Assembly: GCA_011947345.1 (NCBI GenBank)
Contig: JAAVTG010000570.1
Coordinates: forward strand, 1-64,000
Direction: 5' to 3'
From: Phytophthora quininea
Taxonomy: Eukaryota > Oomycota > Peronosporomycetes > Peronosporales > Peronosporaceae
DNA length: 64,000 nucleotides
The notes under the pieces are model-generated. The model worked only from the letters and a program-made list of their open reading frames with translations, was not told the origin of the DNA and searched no databases. The translations under genes were made by a program, and so were the position numbers. Shown in pieces: positions 18,769-63,302 of the stretch. Positions within the stretch are counted from its first letter, which is position 1. Every line of letters starts with the position of its first letter.

Positions 18769-20840
18769 CTAAGACGTCTTGGACGCGGCGCCTGACGAAC
18801 GGGTAGCCTGCTTTCCTTTGAGCCGCACCACCTTGGACGCTGTCTCGGCCAACTTCTTCATGGCCGAGTACTGCGACTGCGACACCTCGCGGGATGTATT
18901 ATCGATGCAGCACACTGAGCCCACCACTTGGTTGTCCTCGCCCATGAGTGGGAAGCCGAGGTAGAACCGCAGGTCGTACGCCTTGAGCGCAGGAAGGTTG
19001 TGGAAACGAATGTCCGACTCGGGGTGCGGCACCAGCAGCGGCTTGTCGTTCATGATCGTGTGCTGGCAGAAGGACTGCTCGCGGGGCATGTGTAGCTGCC
19101 GGAAGGGCTCAACATTGGACGCCAACACGTGCTGCTCGTTGTCGTTGATCAGTGTGACTAATCCCGTGGAGCATTTCATCTCGCGTGCCACCAACTCGCA
19201 GATGAGGTCGAGCTCTTCCGTGTCAGTGATGTTAGAGTACCCTCCGTTCTTGATGGCGCTCAGTCGCTGCTCTTCGCCGCTTGGCATCGGCGGTTTACTG
19301 AGCGTAGCAGTGTCTGGGGCCATGTTCAACGGGTAGTTGCGTCCGTCCGCATTGGCAAGAACGCAGTCCTCGACAGGGACCTTATCCACCTTGATCATGC
19401 CCTTGTCAAGGGCATCCGCGTACTTCTTGACGTCGTCGTCGGTGAGACGCACCGAGACGCCGGACACGGACGAGCACTCGGAGCGAACGTCTGAGTCTTC
19501 CTTGTCCTGACTGAGCAAGTGGCGAATGACCGACACGACCGACTTGCGTTTGTTGCCGGTCGAAGTGTGAAGAGCTTCGTGCAAGAAGTTGGTCAGCGCC
19601 TTTCCTGCAGGTTCAGGTGCTCCGGGAAGTCCGGCCACGCCCGAAAGAGCAGCGTCGGGGAGGATCTCGAGGCGTCCGCGGTTGCGCTGGTCGACTCGGG
19701 AATAGTCGGCATCGCTGACGAATTCGACGCAGCGGGTGCATGCGCGAACCGACGAGACCTCGCCCTGACGGTTCTCGATCGAGTGGATGCTCCAGCACTG
19801 GTGGCAGACCATGTGACCGCAGAGGTGGCAGCGCTTCTTGCGCGCGAGCATTCGCAACGACTTGGCGCAGCATGTGCAGCGGGAGTTGGTGGCCTCGAAT
19901 GTTGCCACGTTGGCCAGCGACTGAGCGCCAAAGCGGCGACGACTCACAACGCCCGGGAGTTGACTCGCGCCGGCAGCAAGACGCATCAATCGTTTCTTGC
20001 GCTTCTTGAGCGAAGCTTGAGCGCCGCGGTTACTGTCGCTGCCGAAGCTGTAGTTGGATGTGGTCGGATTGAACTGAGGCTCGTCGTCCTTCAGCGACGA
20101 CTGGCCAAAGAACATGACCCGCACCAAGTTGCTGGACGGGATCTTCTCGATGAGGTAGGATGCCGTCAGGTCCGGCAGTTCGTCCACCCGCCCCGACTTC
20201 ATCTTGCCCGCCAGCAGCTCCTTCTCGTCCAACGACGTCATGGTGACAGTGAAGGAGTCGGCGCTGCGCTCCTTTCAAAGTGCTCGACGTAGCACCACTG
20301 CTCGTGGTTCTTGAACATCCGGGATCGCTCAAAGGCGCCGGTCTTGACCGTTAGCGTGGCATTAGTGTCGGCTGTGTCGAGCGGTGCGGCGTGCACCACG
20401 GCGCCGTAAATGTAGTCCTTGTACAGACCGTGCATGACGGAGTCGTGAGCAGTGTCGGTGGTGGTGCTCAAGATGGTCTGCAGCTCTTGCAGACTCGCCT
20501 TCATCTCGCCAGTGGTCAGCACTTCCTGAGCCGCCTCGACCCCGTCACCGTGCGAGAAGACCGTGAAGCCGTTGGCCACCGACTTCCACTTCCAGTTCTT
20601 CAGTGATGCCTCGCGGTTCGTGAGGCGCACAAAGTCGACCTTGTCGGCGGCTTCACGCGCGACGCGAAGAAGTTTCTCGTCGCCAAGTCGAACTCGCGAT
20701 TGGATCGAGTGCGGGTCTTGGTCGATGTCCGGGGAGTCACCACCCGAGTCTTTGGTGCTGCGGTCCCACGACCGCTCCACCACAAGTCGTTTGAAGCTGC
20801 CGATGTTGGTGCGGAGACGTTCCTTACGTGTTCTCACCAT
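18769..20840 (-). CDS. START-like / FYVE / GAF protein, gene 1
   Basis: A family abundant in oomycetes. N-terminal part (about 1-260) resembles START-type lipid-binding domains, including EQWCYVEHFE and AGYLVEQV-like text (ASYLIEKIPSSNLVRVMFFGQ). FYVE-type zinc finger at about 318-380 with CTCCAKSL, RCHLCGHMVCHQCW and ACTRC, expected to bind phosphatidylinositol 3-phosphate on endosomes. GAF domain at about 540-680 (ELDLICELVAREMKCSTGLV, QSFCQHTIM, FYLGFPLMGEDNQVVGSVCCID), a small-molecule sensor fold. The start codon at 20840 is clear. One A is missing in an A run near 20272; the 2072-base span plus one gives 690 residues. Ligand of the GAF domain and partners unknown. Confidence 0.88.
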
Positions 20841-27691: not shown

Positions 27692-28591
27692 ATGAACAGA
27701 AACTCCAACACGGAGAAGAACGACCACGCCGGCTACGCGGACCTCGAGTCGCCCGGAGCGGCCAACCACCTCCAACACCTGACGCCCGTCCAGAACGTCC
27801 CGTACATCGTCAAGAGCCAATTCGCCAAGGAGATGATGGCTGAGTTTGTCGCCACGCTCGTCACCATGCTCTTCGGACTCTCGTGCATGACGCAGGTGGT
27901 GCTGAGCTCCGAGGCCAGCGGCAGCTTCGTCACCATCGCGCTCTGCTGGGGACTCGCCTTCTTCTTCGGCATCACCATCGGCGGCGGCGTCTCCGGCGCG
28001 CACCTCAACCCGGCCATCACCACCACGCTGGCGCTGCTCAAGCTGCTGCCGTGGTGGAAAGTGCCCTTCTACATCCTCAACCAGGTCGTCGCCGCCTACA
28101 TGGCCGCGCTCGTCGTGTATATCCTGTACCGCCCCATGTTTAACGAGGTGGACCCGGACCGCATGACGACACACACCATCTTCGCCACATATCCGCACGA
28201 AGGCGTGGGCAACTTCACGTGCTTCCTAACCGAGTTCGTGGGGACGGCGCTGCTGGTGTTGGGCATCCTGGCACTGCTGGACCAGCACAACCGCCCGATC
28301 GGCAAGAAGGCGGTGCCGCCGGCTGTCGGTGCGCTCGTGAGCACGATCGCCATGGGGTTCGCCATGAACACGGGGCTGGCCATCAACCCGGCGCGCGACC
28401 TCGGGCCGCGGTTGTTCATCCTGTGCGCTGGCTGGGGCTCGCGCGTCTTCAGCTTGAACCACTACTACTTCTGGATCCCGATCGTGGCACCGATCACGGG
28501 CGGTGCGTTCGGTGCGCTGGTGTACGAGGGCATGATCGGCTACCACCACCCGGAGAAGAACCGCGGTCCACACCCGGAGTACCGATTCTAA
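27692..28591 (+). CDS. aquaglyceroporin (MIP family), divergent copy A
   Basis: A 299-residue membrane channel for water and small polyols such as glycerol. Six hydrophobic helices and both pore half-helices are visible: first NPA box in SGAHLNPAITTT, second in AINPARDLGPRL; Asp after NPAR marks the glycerol-conducting GlpF-like branch. The N-terminal tail of about 45 residues is polar. Compared with the seven copies at 45-64 kb it is the outlier: it has a longer loop (LLDQHNRPIGKKAVPPAV) and a different tail (HHPEKNRGPHPEYRF). The frame is unbroken. The ATG at 27692 is preferred; the upstream in-frame region from 27548 is UTR-like. Stands alone between UTP12 and the glycosyltransferase. Confidence 0.93.
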   Translation: MNRNSNTEKNDHAGYADLESPGAANHLQHLTPVQNVPYIVKSQFAKEMMAEFVATLVTMLFGLSCMTQVVLSSEASGSFVTIALCWGLAFFFGITIGGGVSGAHLNPAITTTLALLKLLPWWKVPFYILNQVVAAYMAALVVYILYRPMFNEVDPDRMTTHTIFATYPHEGVGNFTCFLTEFVGTALLVLGILALLDQHNRPIGKKAVPPAVGALVSTIAMGFAMNTGLAINPARDLGPRLFILCAGWGSRVFSLNHYYFWIPIVAPITGGAFGALVYEGMIGYHHPEKNRGPHPEYRF

Positions 28592-33850: not shown

Positions 33851-36010
33851 ATGCTGGACCATCGATCGAGTCGTCTGGACAAGCACAGCACCAAGATGAT
33901 GGAGGCGACAGACGAATCGGTGGACACAACCCGCCGCTCAATTGCGCTGCTGGAAGAGACTAACGAGCCTCGGCGCAACGTCCGGTTATCAGACCGTCGC
34001 CTGGTGGAAATCGTGGCTCGGGAGACCAAGAGTATCGATTGGCACCTGCTGCGCTGCAACGTGGCTAACTGGGAGAAAACTCCTTCCGGCTTGGGCTTCG
34101 CGGTCTACACGACCCGCACCCAAGCGTTGAGGCGTGTCATGGCCTCGGGCACAATCCCGTGCTCGGTTGCAGAGCTCCGCCAAGTGCTTCGACCCGCAAC
34201 TGGGGACACGTACGCCGCCATGATGCACGAGCTTTTCGGGGACGATTTCGTGCACGGTTCACTTATTCACCGGATCCCTGAGGGCCCAAGTTCTGGTAGG
34301 AGTGACGATCGCAACCCGGCGAATGATTGGGATGCCTACCGCCACCGAGAATGCCACGACCGCCGGAAAGTGAGCGACGTGACGGTCAAGACGGCCTTGT
34401 TTTCAAAGCGCCACGCGCTGACTCGCAACGAGCAGTGGTGCTTTGTGGACTGCGTGCAGGACTTGGATGGCGGTCACGGTGACGGGTTTTCGTTGACAAT
34501 GTCGTCGCTCGATCCCGAAGACGTCTTTGCCGGGAAAACTCGCGCGCGTGACTGCGATGTGAGTCAAATGCACGATATCCGGGCCGGGTACGCGGTGGTG
34601 CCATCCAGTACGAACAAGGAGGTGCGTGTGAGCTTCTACGCGCACTTCCGCTCCGACGGTGTGAAAACTAGCTCCGAGACCGGTAGAAGTAGTCCGGAGA
34701 CCTCCCACCCGTCGTTCTTGCTGTCGCCAAGCCTCACCTCCGCCCGGATCAGGCACGGAGTTTCGTCTCGAGCGCAAACAAAGCGTCTGACGATGCTGGC
34801 TCATGCCACTGCTCGGTTGGCGGTGCTCGTCCGGCGTCGACGCCTTGGCGCTCAGAAGATGGTCACCCGAACCTACGTACCGCGCAACACTCGTTGCGTG
34901 TGCTGCGCTTCGACTTTGCGTTCATCGACACACCTGGGGCTAACCAGCAAAAAGCGCGTGCGGAGACTCTGTCGACTCTGTGGCTACTACGTGTGTGACG
35001 GTTGCTCGTCCCAGCAAGAAGTGCAGCGCAATGACGACAAAGTGTTTGATTTGGTGCGGATCTGTGAGAACTGCATGGACCGTGTGGACGAAGCCTTGTA
35101 CGACTCGATCCCTGCAGACAACCACGACACTCTGGAGCCGAAGATCCACCCGAACGCGGCGGGCGCCCAAACCGCAACTGCTGTGCTCGCGCGACTGCTA
35201 CGTGATACGCTCGTGAACGCCTCGGAACCCGAGCTGCCTGCTGTGAAGAACGTCATTATGAATCTGGTCGATGACGACAAGGATTTATTGTCATCAACAA
35301 CAACCAAGTCATCTGCAGATTCGGGTATATCTCATCGACTTCGGAGACTCACGGTGGAGAGTTCGCAGGAGGAATATCTGCTGGCATTGCAGTCTCGACT
35401 GCAGGTCCCCGAACGACCTCTCTCGGATTGCGTACTAGCTGGTGCTAGTGGTAGAGCTTATCCGTTGGCATACAGTGACTCGAACGCGGGTGTCCCATTG
35501 TTCCCACTACCAGACAACGAGCTCAAGCGGTTGGGCGCCGTGAGTCAAACTCGGCTAACTGAAGTGCGAAACCTGCCGGAGTTGGAGCTCATCTGCACGT
35601 TGGCCAGCAAGGAGCTCCGATGCTCCACCGGAATGGTCACGCTCATTACCCACGATACACAGTTCATCTTAGCCAGCAGCAATTCTGTTTTCCGCAATGG
35701 AGCGGGGCCACGCGATCAAGCACTCTGCGCACACACAATTATGGGGACGTTGCCGATGCTAGTTCCGCACGCAGCGGCAGATGTGCGATTCAGTCGCAGC
35801 CAACTCGTACTGCGCGGAGGACTGCGCTTTTATTTCGGCTTCCCGTTATACGCCCTGGACGGTGTTACGGCGATCGGAGCCGTGTGCTGCGTTGACAGCG
35901 AGCCTCGTCGTGTGTGTCAGGCCCAGTACGAAACTTTGCAAAAGCTTTCCCTTAGCGCCACACGCATCATTGCCAGCCGTATTGCGAGCCCCGATGAGTT
36001 GACGAACTAA
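33851..36010 (+). CDS. START-like / FYVE-like / GAF protein, gene 2
   Basis: About 719 residues, the only member here with an unbroken frame. The N-terminal START-like region includes LSDRRLVEIVARETKSIDWH and NEQWCFVDCVQDL. The zinc finger (about 340-416) starts RCVCCASTL and has RLCRLCGYYVCDGC and RICENC, eight Cys in FYVE order, but the basic R-x-H-H-C-R signature that binds PI3P is replaced by RVRRLCRLCG, so membrane lipid binding is doubtful. GAF domain at about 573-713 (LELICTLASKELRCSTGMV, GLRFYFGFPLYALDG, AVCCVDSEPRRV). A Thr/Ser-rich linker separates START and finger. The first in-frame ATG is used as start; earlier non-ATG codons are in frame. Confidence 0.85.
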   Translation: MLDHRSSRLDKHSTKMMEATDESVDTTRRSIALLEETNEPRRNVRLSDRRLVEIVARETKSIDWHLLRCNVANWEKTPSGLGFAVYTTRTQALRRVMASGTIPCSVAELRQVLRPATGDTYAAMMHELFGDDFVHGSLIHRIPEGPSSGRSDDRNPANDWDAYRHRECHDRRKVSDVTVKTALFSKRHALTRNEQWCFVDCVQDLDGGHGDGFSLTMSSLDPEDVFAGKTRARDCDVSQMHDIRAGYAVVPSSTNKEVRVSFYAHFRSDGVKTSSETGRSSPETSHPSFLLSPSLTSARIRHGVSSRAQTKRLTMLAHATARLAVLVRRRRLGAQKMVTRTYVPRNTRCVCCASTLRSSTHLGLTSKKRVRRLCRLCGYYVCDGCSSQQEVQRNDDKVFDLVRICENCMDRVDEALYDSIPADNHDTLEPKIHPNAAGAQTATAVLARLLRDTLVNASEPELPAVKNVIMNLVDDDKDLLSSTTTKSSADSGISHRLRRLTVESSQEEYLLALQSRLQVPERPLSDCVLAGASGRAYPLAYSDSNAGVPLFPLPDNELKRLGAVSQTRLTEVRNLPELELICTLASKELRCSTGMVTLITHDTQFILASSNSVFRNGAGPRDQALCAHTIMGTLPMLVPHAAADVRFSRSQLVLRGGLRFYFGFPLYALDGVTAIGAVCCVDSEPRRVCQAQYETLQKLSLSATRIIASRIASPDELTN

Positions 36011-42164: not shown

Positions 42165-43300
42165 CGCGACACTCTTGGAGTTGGATCTCGATGGACTGCT
42201 GCAAATTGGAGAATGGCACACACCCGCCGTCGGTCAAGGACCGGACGAGAGGCTGTCGCTGAAGCGCTCAGTCAACTTGATGCAACCCAGCTTGAACTTC
42301 CCCGACAGGACCTTCCCCAGGCGAAAAAGCGGGCGTTGATTATGAAAGCAGGACTTGTATAAGCATCGAGCGCCTCCGGGGCAAAGGCACGACGCCCAGA
42401 CTGCTTGTCATGTGCCGGCAAGGCAGGGGGATCGCTGCGAAGGCTAACGGCAGCAATTACTTGGAGTAGTTTGTTAGCGAACAGCCTGCAGGAAAACTTC
42501 AACGGGATTTGTGACGGGACACCGATCCATCCGATTCCGCTGCGCTGGTGTCGATCCTTGACAGCATGTTCACACACTGAATAAGCACGTGAAGGACTCG
42601 GACGCTCCACTACAGTAGATCCCAGTGGTGAACACGAGTGAGTCCAAGCTGGAGGGCGTCGCTGACAGCAGGTGCAGTCTACTTCAGCAACTTGCGCATC
42701 ATCGTATGCTGGTCTTTCCCGGCGATTCCCTTCCAAGCCTTGGACTCCATCAGGTCTGCAGGTCTGCAGCGGCATTCGTGACGTCGGTCTGAGCGCGTGC
42801 CGCGCCGTTCTCCCATTGTTGCGCTGCTTGGCTCCCCGGGTGCGGCCGAAAGATCTTCGCCGCCTCTTCACCGGACGAGCATGGAGAACGGGAGCTTGGG
42901 TGTCACAAGCTCTCTCATTCGCTTAACAGCTTCTCCAGCGAGTTTTCCCCACTCCCAACGGACGAGGTAGCCCGACGATCAAGACGTGCTGCATCTTCCA
43001 CGGATACGACGTGGCGGAGCTCGTAGGCGTGGACATGACGTCTTTGCTTGTGGTGATGGATGCGAATGGGCGTTTGGAGCCGGCAAGATTCGCACAGCCT
43101 GGGGCGCAAGATCATCCAAGACGCGTAGGAGACATTGGTCTTTGGGCTCATTTCGGTGCGGTTGTGTCCAGCGATCATTTTTAAGCGTTCTAGCCCGAAA
43201 TACAAAGTTTTGCAGCCGCCGTGGAAGCCCTCAGCCTGGAAGCTTACTGTCTTGCGCCTCACAACCAAACTGTCGCCGTGGGGTGCAGACCCAAACTAGC
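42165..43300. other. unassigned stretch left of the Fanzor gene
   Basis: About 1.1 kb without a recognisable gene. If the Fanzor is carried by a transposon its left end could be here, but I found no terminal inverted repeat or target-site duplication by eye. Open frames on both strands (42272-42871 minus, 42915-43268 minus) show no known domain. Confidence 0.45.
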
Positions 43301-45233
43301 ATGGCGCGGAAAAGGAAGAGGCAAGAGGACACGTCGGGGTCGGGGTCGTGCAGAAGACAGCGAACGTCACAGCAAACCTTTACAGCCAGAAGTCTCGCGC
43401 TTCCACAGCCACCCCGAGCAGCCCGCCAAAGGGCAGAGCGTGCTCATCGCACCCACCGTCGTCAATCTAGCCCCAGTTCTGCGCCATCATCCCAGGCCGA
43501 CTTCGTGCGTGTCACGGTGAAGACCACCATGAACTCTTTCATGACAAGCACAGCCAGGCAGCTCCATCTTCCATGGGACGCAGTGCTACACGACATGAAC
43601 AAAGCTGTTCTTGAGGCTTATTTGTTGGCGAACATACATGTCCTACGACTTACAAGAACGAACCGTCCGCTTGAAGAGCTTGGACAAACATTCTTCTCAA
43701 GTGCCTCACGGCTGTGATGGCAGGGCATCCGACGCTTGCTTCCAGCGCCGATTTAGTGGAATCGGTTGAGATTTACAATGCCTGGCGAGACGCACGAACA
43801 GGACGGAGCAACAACCACTTCATATCGACGGGCTGGCAGCAGTGTGCAGCCAGGCAGATGGCGACCAGCGCTGGCAACGCTGTATGTGGGAACTTCTATA
43901 GACGATTTCACAAGCATCTCAAACGGACATACGAGATCGACGGGCGCAGGGCGTACACCATGCTGAATAAGATTCTTTCGCCCCACTACAATGGCAACGA
44001 CACCAGGATCCTGCTGTGGCGGGCTCGAATTCCTCGAAACGCTGGTGGGCACTTGGATGAACGAACCCACATGCTAATTCCGCTGACTGTTACCTTTTTG
44101 TCGAGTGTGGAGAGACTCAACGCAGAGATTGAAGCAGCACGAGAGGCCGACCCAGACAACAATGATGGAGTTGAGAACGTCAAAATATTCTCGGTTCTTC
44201 CATTTAAAAGAGGCTTTCGGTGCAGTTACTTCAAGATGTGCACTAATGGATTGTGGTCTTGCTCAAGAGAGCTGGAGCTGACGTTCCGCCCTTAGCACGG
44301 GGACCTGGACAAACTGGCACAGTGTGGAGAGACGTCGCCGACGCATTCTGGCGGGAGCTGTTCCATATCGACAAGTTTGAGACGAGTACGAGACGATTCG
44401 CCGATGAAATCTCCACTGACGGGAAAGGTGTTAGTATCACGCTCAAAAAACCAAAACAGGACAATGCTCACCTGGCTCCGCAGCTCTCCGACTTCGATGA
44501 GCTGTGGGGCTTGATCCCGGCCGTCGAGATCTCTTCGTCGCGACAAACACGCAAGGGGAAGATGTCATGTTCTGGTCGTGAGTTCTACGAAGACGCCCGT
44601 TATACAGCAAGCAATAAAACCATGAAAGGCTGGATTGACAGCAATTCTGAGGTGGCAAGGTCATTTGCAGCCATGCCAACACGGAAGACTGCGTCCCTCG
44701 AATCTCTCAAGACGTACGTGGAATATGTCACTCCTAAGCTGGATCTGCTGCTCGGCTTTGAACAACGCAAACCGTTCCGCAAACTACGCTTTCGACGATA
44801 CATCTTTGCCAAGAAGAAACTCCGGACGCTTTGTTTGCAGCTGACTGCACGTGCTGGTGCAAGGACTCTGGTTGGCTTTGGCGATTGGAGCAACACCGAC
44901 CTCGGCGGCCGCATCAAGCGCCACCCCAAGGGCCCAGTCAAGACCTTCGAGGCGGAGCTGAAGCGCTACTGCAGGGTCGAATCCATCGACGAGTTCAGAA
45001 CCAGCAAACTCCATGCTGACTGCCATACCGAGCTCAACAAGCAGTTCTCTCTGCAACGCTGCCGTGACGGTAGGACGCGGACTCGCAAGGCTTACAGTGT
45101 ACTCCATTGTCCGAACAATGGCTGTTTTGGTACTACTGTGAACCGCGACGACAATGCGTCTCGAAACATGCTACTTCTCCTGCAGTATAAGCTGCAGGGT
45201 CTCCGACCGATCGCGTTCTGCCGCGGGACGTAG
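43301..45233 (+). CDS. Fanzor, eukaryotic TnpB-like RNA-guided endonuclease, frame broken
   Basis: Eukaryotic relative of transposon TnpB and Cas12; cuts DNA guided by an RNA from the element's right end. It opens MARKRKRQED, a nuclear-localisation-like basic tail, followed by LEELGQTFF. Middle: LLPFKRGF-type VLPFKRGFRCSYFK. RuvC-I is LDPGRRDLFVATN (44511-44548, out of frame with its flanks). RuvC-II Glu lies in GFGDWSNTD...IDEFRTSK (44876-45007). Zinc ligands follow in HADCH and CPNNGC, with RuvC-III in NRDDNASRNM (about 45138). Frame changes near 43697, 44258, 44512 and 44576; counting three lost bases and one gained, the length is 644 residues, normal for Fanzor1. Similar breaks affect housekeeping genes here, so death of the gene is not proven. 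Neighbours: GH31 upstream, aquaglyceroporin downstream. Confidence 0.88.
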
Positions 45234-45400
45234 CCAAACCTCAAGTGTCCTGTGTGTGCCCGCGGGTGGCATCAGGATAGCCGGTGGTCTCCGGCATTAA
45301 CCTGCTGATGCTGTAGGAAGGTAGTAGCTACTAGCACGTCCCGGATAGCGGGGATAAAGGGGTTAAGCGTGGACGCGAGAATGAAGCTGCTGCCAAAGAA
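45234..45400 (+). ncRNA. candidate Fanzor guide RNA (omega/fRNA) region
   Basis: Immediately after the Fanzor stop lies a non-coding stretch dense in short inverted repeats: GCCGG-tggtct-CCGGC at 45280-45295; TGCTGTAG pairing with CTAC-t-AGCA at 45309-45336, which encloses and competes with the perfect 12-base palindrome TAGTAGCTACTA at 45322-45333; and CCCG-gatag-CGGG at 45340-45352. Fanzor guide RNAs are known to come from the region overlapping or just following the 3' end of the gene, with the guide beyond the element's right end. The boundary and guide cannot be set from one copy. Confidence 0.42.
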
Positions 45401-45651
45401 TTAACATCGGTGTGGATCATTTCGGCATGGATATCGCTGTCATTTCACTCACCGCCGCTGGCCAGTTGGGCTCAGATTGCTTGCCAGACATATCGCTGTG
45501 GTGTGGCCGGACTGACACTTGTGACCGCGGTGTCACGAACGAAATGTGTGGGCCGCATAGAGGCTCCGCAACGTGTGTAGATGGAGTGGGTCTGCGCACT
45601 GAGGGACCCCAACACCCACACGCGATGAATTTCTCGCGGCGAGCTAGCAGT

Positions 45652-45658
45652 TCACTTT
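45652..45658 (+). promoter_or_regulatory. possible initiator of the aquaglyceroporin at 45719
   Basis: TCACTTT fits YCAYTYY and continues CACATTTGTC, 67 bases before the ATG. A similar TCACTTT core precedes the copy at 57300. Confidence 0.4.
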
Positions 45659-45718
45659 CACATTTGTCGCGCAAAATCACGAGCAGCACTCCACCACAAC
45701 GTCGCGGCAAGTTAAGAC

Positions 45719-46657
45719 ATGGGTCGACACTCGTCCAGCGGCGAGAAGTACGAGAGCAGCTACGTCCAAGTGCAAACGCCACGGGCACAAGTTTGCGAGC
45801 CGGAGCCACCAAAATCGTACCAAATCAAGTCGCCGCTATTACGAGAATGCCTCGCCGAATTCCTCGGCACTATGATCCTCGTGCTCTTTGGAGACGGCGT
45901 CGTCGCACAAGTCACGCTCAGTCAAGGCACGAAGGGGAACTACACCACACTCAGTCTCGGGTGGGGAGTCGGCATTCTCTTCGGCATCCACGTCTCCGGC
46001 GGCGTCTCCGGAGCTCACATCAACCCGGCCATCACCACCACGCTCGCACTCTTCCGACGGTTTGAATGGCGTAAAGTGCCGTACTACGTACTGGCGCAGA
46101 CGATCGGCGCCTTCGTGGCCGCGTTCCTCATCTGGGCCGTCTACCACCCCATGTTCGACGTCATTGACCCGCACAAGGCCACCACACAGGGGATCTTCGC
46201 CACCTACCCGTACAGCAACGACGTGTCGGTGGGGACGTGCTTCTTGACGGAGGTGTTGGGCACGGCTCTGCTGCTGTGCGGACTGTTCGCCATCGGTGAC
46301 GAGCTCAACAAGCCTGCCAACCCGTACTCCCAGCCCGGTGCGGTGGCGTTGCTGGTGGTGGGGATCGCCATGGCGTTCGGTATGAACACTGGGTTTGCGT
46401 TAAATCCCGCTCGCGACTTTGGTCCTCGGTTGTTCACGTTGATTGCTGGCTGGGGCTCGCAGGTGTTCACTCTCCGCGACGGATACTTCTGGGTCCCGAT
46501 CGTGGCTCCATTGCTTGGGGGTGCCATTGGTGCCGGCACATACGTGGCGTTGATCGAGCACCACCACCCGCGCGAATGCTTGCAACAAAATCAGCAGCCG
46601 TTCCCCGATGTGACCGAGCGCGTGGACTTGCTGAGTACTTCTTCATACAAACAGTAG
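45719..46657 (+). CDS. aquaglyceroporin, copy B
   Basis: A 312-residue MIP channel, frame unbroken. Order: polar N-tail, first helix LLRECLAEFLGTMILVLFGD, first pore box SGAHINPAITTT, second ALNPARDFGPRL (Asp after NPAR, glycerol type), tail with HHHPRECLQQNQ. From 45956 to 46575 it is almost identical to the copies at 57576-58193 and (inverted) 55098-55710, whereas the 5' third and the last 25 codons differ; this serves as the intact reference for those copies. Lies between the Fanzor and MON2. Confidence 0.94.
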   Translation: MGRHSSSGEKYESSYVQVQTPRAQVCEPEPPKSYQIKSPLLRECLAEFLGTMILVLFGDGVVAQVTLSQGTKGNYTTLSLGWGVGILFGIHVSGGVSGAHINPAITTTLALFRRFEWRKVPYYVLAQTIGAFVAAFLIWAVYHPMFDVIDPHKATTQGIFATYPYSNDVSVGTCFLTEVLGTALLLCGLFAIGDELNKPANPYSQPGAVALLVVGIAMAFGMNTGFALNPARDFGPRLFTLIAGWGSQVFTLRDGYFWVPIVAPLLGGAIGAGTYVALIEHHHPRECLQQNQQPFPDVTERVDLLSTSSYKQ

Positions 46658-52661: not shown

Positions 52662-54793
52662 ATGCAGTCTCCGGCCGAGCCGCCCTTCATGCGACGCGTG
52701 ACAAACTCCGGAGCGCCCGGCTCGAGGTTCTCCACCCCGCGAGCGGTTCGCTTTCGCAGCAAGATCCGAACCGCCACCGCGTCGTCGTCGGCGTCTTCGT
52801 CGCTGCCGTCCTCCAACTCGTCGTCGACCCAAATGCCGCGCGTCCACGTTAAAGACGACGAGCTATGCGCTCGAGCCGAAGCTGTGGCCAGTGCCATGGA
52901 CTTCCGAGGGCTCGCAGGGTCGAGTGGGCCTGGCAGTAAGTGGTCCCTCAAGAAGACGCGCGGGCCGTTCACAACTTACGCGCGGCGACCGGATGCCAAG
53001 ACTGTGCTGGAGCAAACGTCAGCGAGCGGGGGCACTAAGCCCGGCAAGGCTCATGTCATGCAGCAAGTCCTGACGGCTGGAGAAATCCACTGCCACTTGA
53101 AAGAGGTGGCGCGAGTGCTGCACACGACCAACGACTTCGACCACAACGCCGTCATGAGCGGCTTGTACCGCAAGGATTTCATCTACGGCTCGGTAGTGCA
53201 CGTTGTCCCGTCGGAAGCGGACAATGAGCTGCTGCTCGCTAACCTGCTCAAGCAGGACGACAGCGCTAGTTCGACGCAAGTGGCAGTGAAGACGGGCACG
53301 TTCGTGCACAGCAAGATCTTCTCCCCAAACGAGCAGTGGTGCTTCCTCGAGCGCACCAGATACACGCAGGCTGAGCGTGAGGACCCGGAGCTTAAAGAGA
53401 CCGCCGCTCCTAAAGTCAACTCGTTCACGATGACCTTGAGCTCTTTGGATGACAAGGAGCTCGGAGTGGGTAAGGTCAATGACAGGGGTCGGGTGAACAC
53501 GTTGCACGACATGAAGGCCGGCTATCTGGTGGAACAAGTGCCTGGAAGTCGTTACGTGCGCGTGATTTTCTTTGGCCAGTTTGATGCGGACGACTTCGAC
53601 TCGCCAGGACGTGCCGGTGCCTCTCAAATGCGAGCTCGTCTCATGCGACTTGCTGAAGGTGCCGGTCGTTTACCTGAAGTTATTCGTCGCCGTCGATTCG
53701 GGGCGCAAACGATGGCAGATCGGGCGGCTTTCCCAGCGAAAAACTCGCATTGTATCTGCTGCACCAAGTCACTGCATCTACTGACGCGTAAGCACCGCTG
53801 CCATCTCTGCGGCCACTACGTGTGCGACCGCTGCTGGTCTCTCGAGGAAATGGAGACCCAAGCAGCTCGCCGTGTCACGCCAGTGCGCATTTGCACGCGG
53901 TGCCTTGAGTTCGTGGACAATGGAGACTACTCGGCTGTCGAACTCAGTTCCTTGGGGAATCTCGAGGTGAAGCGAGACCCCGTTGATCGACCGTCAGCCA
54001 ACAAAATTCTTGCTCGCCTTCTCCAAAAGGAACTGCGTGCATCAGACGGCCATCGGAAGGAGTCTGTGCGTGCGGTCATCCAGTACCTTGTCAACCAGGA
54101 GGAAGAAGTGAAACATGCGCATGCTCGTGCAGACGCCGAAGCGATCCGATTGACGTCGGACAGTAGTGAGCAAGAGTACTTGGATGCTCTGGAGGGAGGA
54201 CTTCGAATCCCGCAAGTGCCGTTGTACCAGTGTGAATTGGCCAATGCATCCAAGCGCAACTACCCCATCAAAATGCCCAAGAGCGCGGAGAAGGGCAACG
54301 TGCCTGACTTCCCAGTCCCACAGAACGAGAAGGTCCGACTTGCTGCAATTTCTCGCAGTCGCATCATGGAGCTCGAAGATGCTTCGGAACTCGACATGTT
54401 GTGCTCGCTGGCTGCCAGTCAATTGGACTGCCAGTTCAGCATCGTGACCGCTGTGACCGACAAGCACATGACGGTGGTGGCCTCCAACAAAGCGGATCTC
54501 CGACGAGTCCAACTCCCCGTGAACAATCTTTCTGCCAGCACACCATCATGACGAACAAGCCGCTGCTGGTCCTTCACCCGGAGGCCGATGTTCGCTTCCA
54601 GAATATCGATGGACGTGTTGCCTTTGACGTGCGCTTCTACTGCGGATTCCCGATCCTGGACGATGACAAGCGCACGGTGATCGGCTCCTTCTGCTGCATG
54701 GACCAGAGGACGCACGACCTGACGCAAACGCAGTATTCGGCGATGAAGAAGTTGGCAGCCGCGGCAGCTCACGTAGTGAAAACCAAGGCTTAG
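52662..54793 (+). CDS. START-like / FYVE / GAF protein, gene 4
   Basis: About 710 residues, closest to gene 1. A Ser-rich N-tail (about 1-65) precedes the START-like region (KDFIYGSVVHVVPS, NEQWCFLERTRYT, AGYLVEQVPGSRYVRVIFFGQ). The FYVE finger at about 356-422 is near canonical: CICCTKSL, RKHRCHLCGHYVCDRCW, RICTRC; it should bind PI3P. GAF domain at about 566-706 (ELDMLCSLAASQLDCQFSIV, SFCQHTIM, RFYCGFPILDDD, SFCCMDQRTHDL). One C is missing from a C run near 54522, so the GAF half is in another frame; 2132 bases plus one equals 711 codons. The ATG at 52662 is clear. Between MON2 and the inverted aquaglyceroporin. Confidence 0.87.
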
Positions 54794-55029: not shown

Positions 55030-55956
55030 TCAAGCCTCCACTTTCTGCGACGAAGCACTCAGCAAGTCCACATTCTTCGTTTGTTGGAAGCATTCCCGCG
55101 GGTGGTGGTGCTCGATCAACGCCACGTATGTGCCGGCACCAATGGCACCCCCAAGCAATGGAGCCACGATCGGGACCCAGAAGTATCCGTCGCGGAGAGT
55201 GAACACCTTCGAGCCCCAGCCAGCAATCAACGTGAACAACCGAGGACCAAAGTCGCGAGCGGGATTTAACGCAAACCCAGTGTTCATACCGAACGCCATG
55301 GCGATCCCCACCACCAGCAACGCCACCGCACCGGGCTGGGAGTACGGGTTGGCAGGCTTGTTGAGCTCGTCACCGATGGCGAACAGTCCGCACAGCAGCA
55401 GAGCCGTGCCCAGCACCTCCGTCAAGAAGCACGTCCCCACCGACACGTCGTTGCTGTACGGGTAGGTGGCGAAGATCCCCTGTGTGGTGGCCTTGTGCGG
55501 GTCAATGACGTCGAACATGGGGTGGTAGACGGCCCAGATGAGGAACGCGGCCACGAAGGCGCCGATCGTCTGCGCCAGTACGTAGTACGGCACTTTACGC
55601 CATTCAAACCGTCGGAAGAGTGCGAGCGTGGTGGTGATGGCCGGGTTGATGTGAGCTCCGGAGACGCCGGAGACGTGGATGCCGAAGAGAATGCCGACTC
55701 CCCACCCGAGGCAGAGTGTGGTGTAGTTCCCCTTCGTGCCTTGACTGAGCATGACTTGTGCGATGACTCCATTTCCGAAGAGTACGAGGATCATAGTGCC
55801 GAGGAATTCGGCGAGGCATTCTCGCAGTAGTGGAGATCTCAGTTGGTACGGTCGAGTGGTTGGAGCAGTGACGAGTGAATGGCTTGAGACTTTAGGGGAT
55901 TGGAGACCCGCGAAACCATTTTCAGGCTGCGTGCTTGTTGAAAGGCGGTAGTCCAT
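55030..55956 (-). CDS. aquaglyceroporin, copy C, inverted, one residue short next to the first NPA box
   Basis: A MIP channel with an unbroken frame of about 308 residues from the ATG at 55956 (MDYRLSTSTQPENGF); an earlier in-frame ATG at 56076 would add 40 residues of unclear origin. Helix 1 reads LLRECLAEFLGTMILVLFGN; pore boxes GAHINPAITTT and ALNPARDFGPRL. In the loop before the first box it reads HVSGVSGAH where all its relatives read HVSGGVSGAH: one GGC codon is missing, keeping frame. From 55098 to 55710 it matches copies B and D almost base for base. The only member of the array on the minus strand. Confidence 0.9.
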   Translation of the reverse strand: MDYRLSTSTQPENGFAGLQSPKVSSHSLVTAPTTRPYQLRSPLLRECLAEFLGTMILVLFGNGVIAQVMLSQGTKGNYTTLCLGWGVGILFGIHVSGVSGAHINPAITTTLALFRRFEWRKVPYYVLAQTIGAFVAAFLIWAVYHPMFDVIDPHKATTQGIFATYPYSNDVSVGTCFLTEVLGTALLLCGLFAIGDELNKPANPYSQPGAVALLVVGIAMAFGMNTGFALNPARDFGPRLFTLIAGWGSKVFTLRDGYFWVPIVAPLLGGAIGAGTYVALIEHHHPRECFQQTKNVDLLSASSQKVEA

Positions 55957-56076
55957 GGACGCTGAGGACTGCGCGTTGATCGAAGCGGTGGAAGTTTGCA
56001 CACTGGTGCCCTCGCGGAATGGCTCCTGGTCCCAGTGGTTGCCCCGTCCCATTTGGCCTCGTACATGTAGTAACAT

Positions 56077-57299
56077 AGCTGCACCTGCTCAACGGTGTCG
56101 AGATGGACCGGACTAGCGTCGTTGATGTCTCAACTCCCATTGTCAAAGCACCACCGACATGAAGAAAGCCACATACATCGGAGACTTCGCTTCATAAGAA
56201 TGAAAAATAGTGCCAATGCGATACGACTCGCGTCAGCATGAAAACCTCCCGAGTTCTTTCAGGAAAAGCATTGGGTTTATGGCACTACGGCGCAAAGCAT
56301 TCTCCCCGACGAATTCTGCACTCGACCAAAGGTTTCAGAATTATGCTGATTCAATGCTTGCGATCTCTTTCGCGCAGGTGGGCCCGACTCGGGGTCGAAT
56401 GGCAACACCAAGGACGCCGGGTGACATCTGCTGGCGTGTTTCCCGCGCTGGAGCTTCGCAGATAAAATGAGGTGTTGTCGAAGACGAAACTCACGATCTG
56501 GAGCTTGACTTGAGGCTACCAGCAAAAAGGTGTCAGTGCTTCGCATCGGAATCGGTGATCGGCAATGGACAGTCGAACCGAAAGGCAAAGAATGTTTTCT
56601 AGTCAACATAAGGATGCCACGAGTTGAGGCCCGTTCGCTGCTCGAAACGGGGCGAATAACGGATGCCAAAGCTCGTTAAAGCAACCACAACTGCTCTGTT
56701 CAATAGTCATACCCCCGTCTAGTGGGAGAAGGCGGTCACGATATCTTTACAGGTTCTTCAGGTCGACTTACCGTGCTGCAATCGGCATTGGACAGCGCAT
56801 TATGGATAGGCGTGATGTTGTCGGTGGTCTGCGTCGTTCCTTTCACCTGTAAACTCGAAAAGCAGATACCGTGCAGGTAATAGTGCAACATCTTGCACGA
56901 GCGAGAACAAGAGGAATCGTGGGTTTCTTGTCGTCGTTTACAGATTTCGTGGCCGCCAAAACCGCCACAGAAAGCAGCACTTCATCATAATTCTCGAGCT
57001 TTGTTCTCGGTGATCTCACAGGCACACACAACACACCGTCGGCATCGATTGATCCTTGCCCTCCTGCAACTTCGACATCCTCTGCGACAAAGTGGAGCCC
57101 ATTTTCCCCACGGTCAAAATTTGCAGCAAGCCTAGAGTCCGGAATGGTTCAGCTGGATCGCTTTGGGCGTTCCAACCGCTTTAAAGACGAGAGATCCTTT
57201 GCCCTTCGTCGGTGGTGCCGATGGTCCATCCAGCGTCGACTTTCGAGCTCACTTTCCAATTCTCAACCAACCGCAAACATCGATACGCCAACGACCGTC
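56077..57299. other. intergenic between the divergent aquaglyceroporins C and D
   Basis: About 1.2 kb, shared promoter space. No recognisable coding sequence; the frame of copy D is open upstream to 57144 but lacks conserved text. Confidence 0.5.
57249..57255 (+). promoter_or_regulatory. probable initiator of the aquaglyceroporin at 57300
   Basis: TCACTTT fits YCAYTYY and continues CCAATTCTC; the block TCACTYTCCAATTCTC is shared with the diverged copy A (27605), 51 bases before this ATG. Confidence 0.45.
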
Positions 57300-58260
57300 A
57301 TGGACCCAGAGCGCTACTCGGCCAGCTACAAGCTCGACGACAACTACAAAGTCGAGGACGGATTCAAACCCGAAGAGGGCTACACCGTCGTTCAGACCCC
57401 ACGAGGAATTGCTCTTGAAACACCAGAAAACCGGCCGTACCAACTCAAGTCGCCACTATTGCGAGAATGCCTCGCCGAATTCCTCGGCACTTTGATCCTC
57501 GTGCTCTTCGGAAATGGAGTCATCGCACAAGTTACGCTCAGTCAAGGCACGAAGGGGAACTACACCACACTCTGCCTCGGGTGGGGAGTCGGCATTCTCT
57601 TCGGCATCCACGTCTCCGGCGGCGTCTCCGGAGCTCACATCAACCCGGCCATCACCACCACGCTCGCACTCTTCCGACGGTTTGAATGGCGTAAAGTGCC
57701 GTACTACGTACTGGCGCAGACGATCGGCGCCTTCGTGGCCGCGTTCCTCATCTGGGCCGTCTACCACCCCATGTTCGACGTCATTGACCCGCACAAGGCC
57801 ACCACACAGGGATCTTCGCCACCTACCCGTACAGCAACGACGTGTCGGTGGGGACGTGCTTCTTGACGGAGGTGCTGGGCACGGCTCTGCTGCTGTGCGG
57901 ACTGTTCGCCATCGGTGACGAGCTCAACAAGCCTGCCAACCCGTACTCCCAGCCCGGTGCGGTGGCGTTGCTGGTGGTGGGGATCGCCATGGCGTTCGGT
58001 ATGAACACTGGGTTTGCGTTAAATCCCGCTCGCGACTTTGGTCCTCGGTTGTTCACGTTGATTGCTGGCTGGGGCTCGAAGGTGTTCACTCTCCGCGACG
58101 GATACTTCTGGGTCCCGATCGTGGCTCCATTGCTTGGGGTGCCATTGGTGCCGGCACATACGTGGCGTTGATCGAGCACCACCACCCGCGCGACTACAGC
58201 GCGCCGCTGCCGAAGGTCGAGAGTTTTGGCGTCGTCGCGAGCCACTCGTCGTACAAGTAG
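57300..58260 (+). CDS. aquaglyceroporin, copy D, two one-base losses
   Basis: Starts MDPERYSASYKLDDNYK, a long polar N-tail; helix 1 LLRECLAEFLGTLILVLFGN, pore boxes GAHINPAITTT and ALNPARDFGPRL, tail ending HHHPRDYSAPLPKVE and SHSSYK with TAG at 58258. Compared with copy B, the G4 run at the GIFATYP site (near 57811) is G3, and a G5 run near 58139 is G4; counting both, 320 residues. Otherwise the core 57576-58193 is nearly identical to B. First of four collinear plus-strand copies to the window edge. Confidence 0.9.
57576..58193 (+). repeat. near-identical 620-base core shared by three aquaglyceroporin genes
   Basis: Same sequence at 45956-46575 (plus) and 55098-55710 (minus). Only scattered substitutions were noticed, for example GAGGTGCTGGG versus GAGGTGTTGGG and CTCGAAGG versus CTCGCAGG, plus the small indels described for copies C and D. 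Similarity drops sharply on both sides inside the genes. Confidence 0.85.
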
Positions 58261-60844: not shown

Positions 60845-61712
60845 ATGACGGACTCCAGCGACAAGACCGAGAACGGATACGTCCTGCAAGAACCCGACGT
60901 GGTGGCCGTGCCCTCGCCTTCTGACAGAGACTTCCGGGTCAAGTCGGCGCTGCTGCGCGAGTGTATGGCGGAATTTCTCGGCACGATGGTGCTGATCCTG
61001 TTCGGCGACGGCGTCGTGGCTCAAGTGGTGCTGAGTGAGAACACCAAGGGCAACTATCTTAACATCAATCTGTGCTGGGGGCTCGGCGTGCTCTTCGGCA
61101 TTTACGTCTCCGGGGGCGTCTCTGGTGCTCACCTGAACCCGGCCGTAACCACGACGCTCGCCATCTTTGGTCGCCTCGAGTGGCGCAAAGTGCCGGGCTA
61201 CATCCTCGCTCAAGTGCTCGGCGCGTTCGTGGGCGCGTTCATTGTCTGGGCGGTCTATAACCCCATGTTTAACGTCATCGACCCCGACAAGACTTCCACC
61301 CAGGAGTCTTCGCCACCTACCCGTACAGCAACGACGTCCCTGTCGGAACCTGCTTCCTAACGGAGGTGGTCGGCACTGCGTTGTTGATGGGAGGTATCTT
61401 CGCTATCGGGGACGAGTTGAACAAGCCCGCGAGCCCCTACACGCAGCCCGGCGCGGTGGCTTTGCTGGTGGTTGCGATTGGCATGGCGTTTGGCATGAAC
61501 TCGGGCTATGCGATCAACCCTGCTCGTGACTTTGGTCCTCGACTTTTCTCGCTCTGCGCTGGCTGGGGTCTCGTGTCTTCACCATGCGCGACCACTACTT
61601 CTGGGTGCCGATTGTCGGTCCCATTCTCGGCGGTGCGATCGGCGCGGGCGTGTACGTCGGACTCGTTGAGCACCACCACCCGCGTGACTACAAGCACCCG
61701 CTGGAGAACTAA
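60845..61712 (+). CDS. aquaglyceroporin, copy F, two one-base losses
   Basis: Starts MTDSSDKTENGYVLQEPDVV; pore boxes GAHLNPAVTTT and AINPARDFGPRL; tail HHHPRDYKHPLEN, stop at 61710-61712. A G run near 61303 and a T near 61570 are each one base short compared with E and G; counting both, 289 residues. The segment GWG followed by RVFTMRDHYFWVPIVGP is readable only after the second correction. Confidence 0.89.
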
Positions 61713-62430
61713 ATTGCGTCCTAGCGTAGTTGTTAGCGTATGTAAATCGATTCAATCCCAAGGGCTTCTTCACCTCGGAATACGATTCCCCATTTCGTTG
61801 GCGTGGCCACGCTCACGGACCGACACATGCCACGGCGCCGATGTCATGTGCGGCGCTGGATTTGCCACGCCGCGGCTCTATTCGAAGCAGTCACGCCATC
61901 GACAGACAGCTCCGGCACGCGTCTTCCACGAGACCGCCGACTTTCGAGACCGCCGAACCGAAAGGACCACCGACATCGATCGACTGCACGGGCTCAGGTA
62001 ATTGAAACTGAAGCAAGGTCCACCTCTTGGCGACGCATTTGCATTGCGGAGACCGCAACCAAAGGCAACGGCGGCGATGGGAACTCCGCGCCAGGTGATG
62101 CAGCGTCCGGCGTGGAGGATGAATGCACGACACACATCGCGGATTGCGGCGACTTTCTGAAGTGCTGATGGTGGATGAACTGCAGCTGGTGCGCTCCACG
62201 CCTGGCACTGGCACTCGTTTGTTCAGTCGTCTCGCTCGGCAGCCCAGTCTTTATGTCTTGCTGCCATTCCTCGGCGAAAACTTGCTTGAACTTCAAGAGT
62301 TTCCGTCATGTCAACATTGCCGCTGTCAGCGCCGCTGCCTGTCGGAGCGACACTCGGACTGCAGACGAATTGGAGACCACTTTCCGATTCGCAACGTCGG
62401 TCCCCACCACAACTCTGCCCAAGCTCCACC
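61713..62430. other. intergenic between aquaglyceroporins F and G
   Basis: About 720 bases with no recognisable gene; the frame of copy G is open upstream to 62308 but reads as UTR. CCATTCC at 62264-62270 fits the initiator consensus weakly. Confidence 0.45.
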
Positions 62431-63302
62431 ATGTCGGGAAACGACGATAAGATCGAGAGCGGCTACGTCGGCGTGCAAGATCCCGAGATCCCTTTGAGCT
62501 TCGAGCCAACCAAGCCCTACCAAGTCAAGTCCCCGTTGTTCCGTGAATGTCTGGCGGAGTTCCTCGGCACCATGGTCATGATCATGTTCGGCGACGGTGT
62601 TGTGGCTCAAGTGGTGCTCAGCGAGGGCACCAAGGGCGAGTACATTAACATCAACTTGTGCTGGGGTCTCGCGGTGCTCTTCGGCATCCACGTCTCCGGT
62701 GGAGTCTCGGGCGCCCACTTGAACCCGGCCGTGACCACGACGTTGGCCTGGTTCGGACGCATGGAGTGGCGCAAGGTGCCGTACTACGTCGTCTCCCAAA
62801 TCCTCGGAGCCTTCGTGGCGGCGTTCATCGTCTGGGTCGTGTACTACCCCATGTTCAACGTGATCGACCCCGAGAAGACCTCGACGCAAGGCGTATTTGC
62901 TACTTACCCGTACAGCAACGATGTGCCCGTTGGAACCTGCTTCCTTACGGAGGTGGTGGGCACAGCTCTGCTACTCGGATGCATCTTTGCCATCGGTGAC
63001 GAGATGAACAAGCCCGCCAACCCTTACACGCAGCCCGGTGCCGTTGCTCTGTTGGTGGTAGCCATCGGCATGGCCTTCGGCATGAACTCCGGCTACGCTA
63101 TCAACCCCGCCCGTGATTTCGGTCCGCGTCTGCTTTCACTGTGTGCTGGGTGGGGATCGGAAGTTTTACGCTCCGCGACTCGTACTTCTGGGTGCCGATC
63201 GTGGCCCCGCTGCTCGGTGGCCCCATCGGAGCTGGAGTGTACGTGGGTTTGATCGAGTATCACCACCCGCGCGAGTACAAGCACCCGCTTGAGGGTCAAT
63301 AA
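62431..63302 (+). CDS. aquaglyceroporin, copy G, one one-base loss
   Basis: Starts MSGNDDKIESGYVGVQDPEI; helix 1 LFRECLAEFLGTMVMIMFGD; pore boxes GAHLNPAVTTT and AINPARDFGPRL; tail YHHPREYKHPLEGQ, TAA at 63300-63302. A T run near 63168 is one base short, just after GWGSEV; counting it, 290 residues. Closest to copies E and F. Confidence 0.9.

Follow-up and report, generated by a model that had tools for sequence, protein, structure and literature searches.

The window analyzed here, meaning the whole 64,000-nucleotide stretch of Phytophthora quininea contig JAAVTG010000570.1, encodes on its forward strand a protein whose sequence supports assignment to the Fanzor1 type. Neighboring genes encode a GH31 glycosyl hydrolase (minus strand) and an aquaporin, the ATG of which is found 353 bp past the element. 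The motifs from which the gene was recognized (a basic N-terminus, LDPGRRDLFVATN, IDEFRTSK, the zinc pairs, and NRDDNASRNM) were all found where the original prediction had placed them and in the same order. Of the predicted zinc Cys/His pairs, both are present (45012/45021 and 45108/45123), but the second is Cys-Cys. The predicted range, 43301..45400, required revision as the element starts further upstream, and an alignment of copies sets its ends at 43181-45366 (Table 1).

Table 1. Coordinates of the Fanzor1-bearing element and its parts in the window
Feature	Position	Strand	Basis
Fanzor1-bearing element including flanking TTAA (~2.18 kb between)	43181..45366	+	comparison of fetched copies, genome-wide end patterns
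Left TTAA, target-site repeat and predicted part of the TAM	43181..43184	.	copy comparison, end patterns
Left terminal repeat, family pattern TTCTAGCCCCGAACTATACAG, degenerate here	43185..43210	+	copy comparison, end patterns
Open piece A: ATG, basic N-terminus, first part of recognition half	43301..43717	+	
Open piece B, other frame: remainder of recognition half	43675..44295	+	
Open piece C/E, third frame: pre-RuvC region, RuvC-II, zinc ribbon, RuvC-III, stop codon	44247..45233	+	
RuvC-I with DPG, off-frame relative to the surrounding piece	44507..44560	+	motif LDPGRRDLFVATN at 44510-44548
Catalytic Glu (IDEFRTSK), alternative Fanzor position, 6 residues before zinc ribbon	44991..44993	+	
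Zinc ribbon, His-x2-Cys and Cys-x4-Cys ligands	45012..45125	+	
Catalytic Asp of RuvC-III (NRD in NRDDNASRNM)	45147..45149	+	
3' module common to and exchanged between two Fanzor1 subfamilies (start approximate)	44745..45366	+	
131-bp right end, also on ghosts: predicted guide-RNA scaffold and right terminal repeat	45236..45366	+	
Right TTAA	45363..45366	.	
Predicted guide segment of the window copy (flanking DNA)	45367..45386	+	inferred from SpuFz1 and SfAV guide RNAs (PMC10432273, PMC10711439)

Searching the host genome (87 Mb, 993 contigs) with the C-terminal part of the gene gave at least 125 matches, from close copies to distant families, and 20 loci of about 9.3-9.5 kb were fetched. In the aligned copies, the right end is sharp, with GTCCCGGATAGCGGGGGTAAAGGGG-TTAA followed by divergence unless the loci share flanks. 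Right ends were read in 21 cases, two of which are interrupted (L034 and L043); the other 19 end in TTAA (17/19) or CTAA (2/19). The two interruptions occur at the same motif with inserts that start with the same bases, and look like a nested insertion. At the left end, TTAA is followed by one to three variable bases and then by TTCTAGCCCCGAACTATACAG. When the end patterns were searched genome wide with up to three mismatches, 68 right and 37 left ends were recovered and reversed control patterns gave none; an exact TTAA stood in register at 61/68 right and 31/37 left ends, counts to be read with search patterns that favored TTAA. The two ends match weakly as an inverted repeat, with a score that 19 of 2000 shuffles also reach.

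The window element has TTAA on both sides and shares four further bases beyond it (TTAAGCGT on both sides), and L052 shares two further bases (TTAACA). A target-site duplication longer than TTAA was nevertheless rejected because the other copies differ, with L031, L033, L049, and C333 sharing at most one base past TTAA. No empty site for the window copy was found in the window and the fetched loci. At the position of a ghost (an element with the same two ends that is too short for a Fanzor gene) in L046, L035 shows just one TTAA and thus resembles an empty site, but this TTAA is the left edge of a Fanzor copy. No clean empty site was found.

With its TTAA and terminal repeats, rather than an IS607-type organization, and with the Fanzor gene and right end filling its 2.18 kb, we predict the element to be a non-autonomous transposon of the TTAA type (piggyBac-like). 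Non-autonomous elements of the piggyBac type are bounded by TTAA, have short, imperfect terminal repeats that begin C-rich, and occur as short derivatives too. All of these features are seen here, and the differences are that the cargo is a Fanzor1 and that no autonomous element with both ends was found among the paired ends and the 100 piggyBac matches compared. TTAA with terminal repeats would suit piggyBac but also other TTAA families, and the transposases of Kolobok and Sola3 likewise prefer TTAA. Among the 100 piggyBac transposase matches compared, two lie within 5 kb of an end (C386 and C514); a reading as two independent arrangements was rejected, since their right flanks match each other and they count as one. 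In this arrangement (L051, on C386), the right end is present and the left end is absent. A mobilizer of the Kolobok or Sola3 type would be favored by the fact that piggyBac is tied to these ends only through this duplicated arrangement, which has no left end. On the other side, the genome is rich in piggyBac transposases (at least 125 matches, in a search that covered piggyBac only), and we regard a non-piggyBac mobilizer as a possible but secondary candidate, with piggyBac as the one that we propose.

The same two ends also delimit much shorter elements. Pairing of 71 right and 49 left positions yielded 37 pairs, one of which measures 3.75 kb. The 20 pairs of 560-595 bp are ghosts, 8 pairs of other sizes fall below 1 kb, and the 8 of 2.0-2.6 kb all lie in fetched Fanzor loci. 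Two ghosts were read from end to end (L052 and one in L046), the others being known by their size and ends. The right-end sequence that ghosts and Fanzor copies have in common starts directly after the Fanzor stop codon, and the best 39 other genomic copies of the 131-bp right end, counting ghosts as well as Fanzor copies, show 94-98% identity to the window. In four loci of other Fanzor families (L022, L024, L025, and L030), the right-end module gave matches of chance length only. The ghost in L046 (about 8347-8937) is flanked by an 11-bp insertion repeat (TTAACACCGCA) rather than by TTAA and has a damaged left end, and is therefore not a clean TTAA case.

The gene itself is broken. In place of the single 1.93 kb coding region originally described, the motifs are split over three reading frames (Table 1), with RuvC-I off-frame relative to the piece around it. 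Eighteen fetched loci and the window were compared piece by piece, two loci being dropped (L047, partial at 76%, and L050, of another family). None of these 19 copies (0/19) has all of its pieces in one frame without a stop; many have in-frame stops as well, and several are truncated. A reading of the locus as an intact nuclease is accordingly not supported. Alternatively, the living organism may have an intact locus, with the frame breaks introduced as errors of the assembly. Over 2.16 kb, L031 and the window show 97.6% identity, yet L031 breaks in a different pattern, which taken by itself would suit such errors, and two nearby aquaporin frames (57144 and 62308) also shift frame near their ends relative to the one at 45719, so that assembly error may still account for some of the breaks. 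As a general explanation it is unlikely, since in-frame stops together with differing break patterns argue for decay, none of the 19 copies is intact, and frames of 629-856 residues stay open in the same window. Prior to decay, the protein was likely under selection, as judged from the excess of synonymous over non-synonymous change in its C-terminal part (pS 0.11 and pN 0.017 against L037 beyond the junction described below; pS 0.20 and pN 0.037 against L034).

TldR proteins are bacterial, nuclease-dead, RNA-guided binders, and a Fanzor might be retained in a similar role. L031 has a 519-residue open frame (L031:3510-5066) in which RuvC-I is read in the wrong frame, giving a protein without the first catalytic Asp. 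That a nuclease-dead binder is being retained here is nonetheless very improbable, since the L031 frame is without the N-terminal piece, RuvC-I is in frame with its neighbors in other copies (e.g., L037 and L038), and the relatives keep the catalytic triad.

Several lines of evidence support placing the protein within Fanzor1: (i) among solved chains, a profile of 20 relatives matched SpuFz1 (E 1.1e-15) and PpFz1 (E 2.3e-12) and no others at E up to 0.01, and the last open piece of the window by itself matched PpFz1 (E 1.5e-5) and SpuFz1 (E 3.6e-4); (ii) the D-E-D RuvC triad is present in order in the window, RuvC-I being out of frame in this copy; and (iii) the window has LDPG in RuvC-I and an alternative Glu followed by six residues and the HxxC start of the zinc ribbon, as in the published Fanzor fingerprint, which combines DPG in RuvC-I with a Glu that precedes the zinc ribbon by six residues (PMC10711439). 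The relatives were obtained with an open frame of the sister copy L038 as query, which returned 102 proteins, among them some from Phytophthora, Nothophytophthora, and Globisporangium as well as from green algae; those named include proteins of P. nicotianae, P. capsici, P. citrophthora, P. palmivora, and Nothophytophthora. Many are 600-660 residues long, in agreement with the corrected length of about 644 residues predicted at the outset. In the ungapped rows of their alignment, the first D is conserved in 96/97, the alternative E in 91/92, and the last D in 85/89, so the three acidic residues are conserved, and the assignment to Fanzor1 is supported. Together with the copies in the genome and the 102 relatives, this conservation lifts the observation far above chance. 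The only Pfam domain is the Cas12f1-like_TNB zinc domain, found in 18/20 profile members and weakly, below the curated cut-off, in the window piece (E 3.5e-4; 21.1 against 26.3 bits). Another RuvC-fold family (TnpB, Cas12, or resolvase), toward which a weak NCBIfam guided_TnpB match might point (E 0.0059; 15.9 bits against a cut-off of 100), is the least probable of the alternatives, given the DPG, the alternative Glu, and structure matches to Fanzor1 only.

The zinc ribbon of this Fanzor1 lies between RuvC-II and RuvC-III and has four ligands in the order His-Cys-Cys-Cys. It is thus not a strict C4, as the Fanzor zinc ribbon has been described (PMC3627910). His occupies the first ligand position in the window and in 63/91 ungapped relatives, and Cys does so in 28/91. 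One of the relatives, the Fanzor1-like protein P0025, lies on a 3.3-kb contig, is attributed to a Thermoplasmata archaeon, and may be eukaryotic contamination.

Judging from the copies within this genome, the 3' module appears to have been exchanged repeatedly between two Fanzor1 subfamilies. The last ~620 bp of the element are closely similar in both, and just upstream the two are saturated at synonymous sites. Compared with L037, L038, L040, and L041, the window differs at synonymous sites by 0.76-0.83 within 44568-44741 and by 0.10-0.19 between about 44770 and the stop codon, and this drop marks a recombination junction and not a difference in constraint. Within 45236-45330, the eight members of the second subfamily (L037-L042, L044, and L045) show 90-97% identity to the window; further upstream, the subfamilies are about 42-63% identical as proteins where pieces match. 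In a tree of the 5' parts of the 19 copies, the subfamily label changes once, with support of 100/100, as expected because the labels were drawn from the 5' part. The 3'-part tree takes six label changes, equal to shuffled labels (mean 6.3-6.4). Its well-supported branches force at least three, consistent with an initial exchange followed by two or more later ones, and constraining the second subfamily to group together on it is rejected (AU p 2e-50). The well-supported pairs that cross the subfamilies are L035 with L040 and L036 with L042; most other branches lack resolution.

The second of these pairs also indicates how the module may have moved. L041 and L042 have both flanks in common at 92-99% identity per 100 bp and look like duplicates of one insertion. 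Within the element, their 5' bins of 100 bp are 87-98% identical, and of the last six bins, five are at 87-90% and the last is at 95%. L042 and L036 are 94-97% identical in the last 100-bp bins, and their flanks are unrelated. This pattern suggests that gene conversion or a similar process replaced the module in place. The picture is patchier for L035 and L048, which also have a flank in common. Another Fanzor1 family is present in three copies (L022, L023, and L024; C551:92284-103816) that are 99.5-99.7% identical, lie within 12 kb in mixed orientation, and have a left flank common to two of them.

One could go further and suppose, though we hold this only as a tentative and somewhat doubtful extension, that Fanzor1 elements consist of two cassettes with separate evolutionary histories. 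RuvC-II/III, the zinc ribbon, the guide-RNA scaffold, and the right end would make up the 3' cassette, passed as a unit between families and with its RNA end also on ghosts, and the 5' cassette, which would read the TAM and the guide-target duplex, would diverge freely. If true, the guide RNAs of the whole genome would form a single interchangeable pool that serves several Fanzor proteins in trans. The recurrent swap of the nuclease-plus-RNA half between families itself amounts to a natural domain-swap experiment, predicting that protein halves and guide-RNA scaffolds are interchangeable across Fanzor1 families. Recurrent exchange of a 3' module is not mentioned in the available text of the Fanzor papers cited here, the literature search having been aimed at Fanzor with piggyBac and with TTAA.

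It is likely that the window holds a broken Fanzor1 in a 2.2-kb, TTAA-ended, non-autonomous transposon that was moved in trans, and that the Fanzor1 of intact relatives would cut matching DNA beside TTAA, guided by an RNA probably made from the right end. Of this, the family, the triad, the ends, the multiple copies, the ghosts, the frame breaks, and the mixing of 3' modules between subfamilies are shown by the sequences. On the model of SpuFz1, GtFz1, and SfAV (PMC10432273, PMC11423790, PMC10711439), the steps would be as follows: (i) a TTAA-specific transposase, proposed to be piggyBac, would move the element in trans; (ii) the 131-nt right end would be transcribed as scaffold, with the downstream flank after TTAA as guide; (iii) the TTAA left at the excised site would serve as TAM; and (iv) Fanzor1 of intact relatives would cut the excised site, and repair would copy the element back. 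A Fanzor protein produced at any other locus of the genome would receive additional guide RNAs from the ghosts. In the predicted fold of the 131 nt, the start pairs with the terminal GGGGTT, which would place part of the TTAA inside the scaffold, as described for Fanzor1; the fold energy does not differ significantly from that of shuffles (z -1.53 and -1.15). Two-sided changes were seen in 0/30 pairs of this fold across 21 sequences, and Rfam gave no match up to E 1 in 43000-45700.

One of the closest parallels is SpuFz1 with its Spu-1 element from Spizellomyces punctatus, a Fanzor1 in an element of ~2.1 kb, accompanied by ghosts of ~550 nt, in which the region from stop codon to terminal repeat is likewise common to ghosts and Fanzor elements (PMC10432273). 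Ghost RNAs are reported there to be active with SpuFz1 (PMC10432273), and the ghost arrangement of a chytrid is thus repeated in a distant lineage, an oomycete. There are also differences: the SpuFz1 TAM is CATA, in contrast to the TTAA flanks here; the right-end scaffold of Spu-1 is 75 nt, compared with a 131-bp right end; the first zinc ligand of SpuFz1 is Cys rather than His; and 19 full-length genes are reported for Spizellomyces, compared with 0/19 intact copies here (PMC10432273). GtFz1 of Guillardia theta, to which the window protein is likened by description only, is a Fanzor1 whose measured TAM, TTAAN (PMC10432273), matches the TTAA flanks here, and its third catalytic residue is Asn, whereas here it is Asp (PMC10432273, PMC11423790). 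One sentence of PMC11423790 swaps the two TAMs; the mutant test in that paper uses TTAA for GtFz1.

Fanzors were stated at the outset to have been reported from oomycetes, and this is correct: families were listed in 2013 for three Phytophthora species, Pythium, and Albugo (PMC3627910), and a P. cactorum Fanzor model was shown in 2023 (PMC10711439). The protein here belongs to the same family, in the same group of organisms, and with such families in print since 2013 the view that it is unusual for an oomycete is not supported. Fanzor1 in Phytophthora (2013) and both ghosts and a TTAA motif (2023) are already published. For these oomycete families, the available text of PMC3627910 and PMC10711439 is without mention of TTAA ends, ghosts, or an exchanged 3' module. 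A search of the literature on Fanzor with piggyBac and Fanzor with TTAA, covering titles and abstract openings mostly outside subscription journals, returned no TTAA-type oomycete Fanzor element among the papers listed. The anatomy described here provides an oomycete Fanzor1 element with its ends, its ghosts, and a testable TAM (TTAA).

The surroundings were originally described as effector-rich, which overstates the case, as two RXLR-EER-like frames (15796 and 16953, both on the plus strand; reversed-sequence control 0) lie about 26 kb away. The aquaporin at 45719 is 81-83% identical to proteins from Phytophthora nicotianae, Nothophytophthora, and metagenomes. It belongs to a cluster of aquaporin-like frames (27692-28591, 45719-46657, 55030-56076, 57144-57866, 61387-62001, and 62308-63252), recognized by eye, with that at 45719 also searched; the frame shifts near the ends of those at 57144 and 62308 may reflect either decay or assembly error. 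FYVE-domain proteins are encoded at 18769-20241 (minus strand), 33851-36010 (plus strand, with a match below the curated cut-off), and 52662-54551 (plus strand), one of them with a GAF domain as well.
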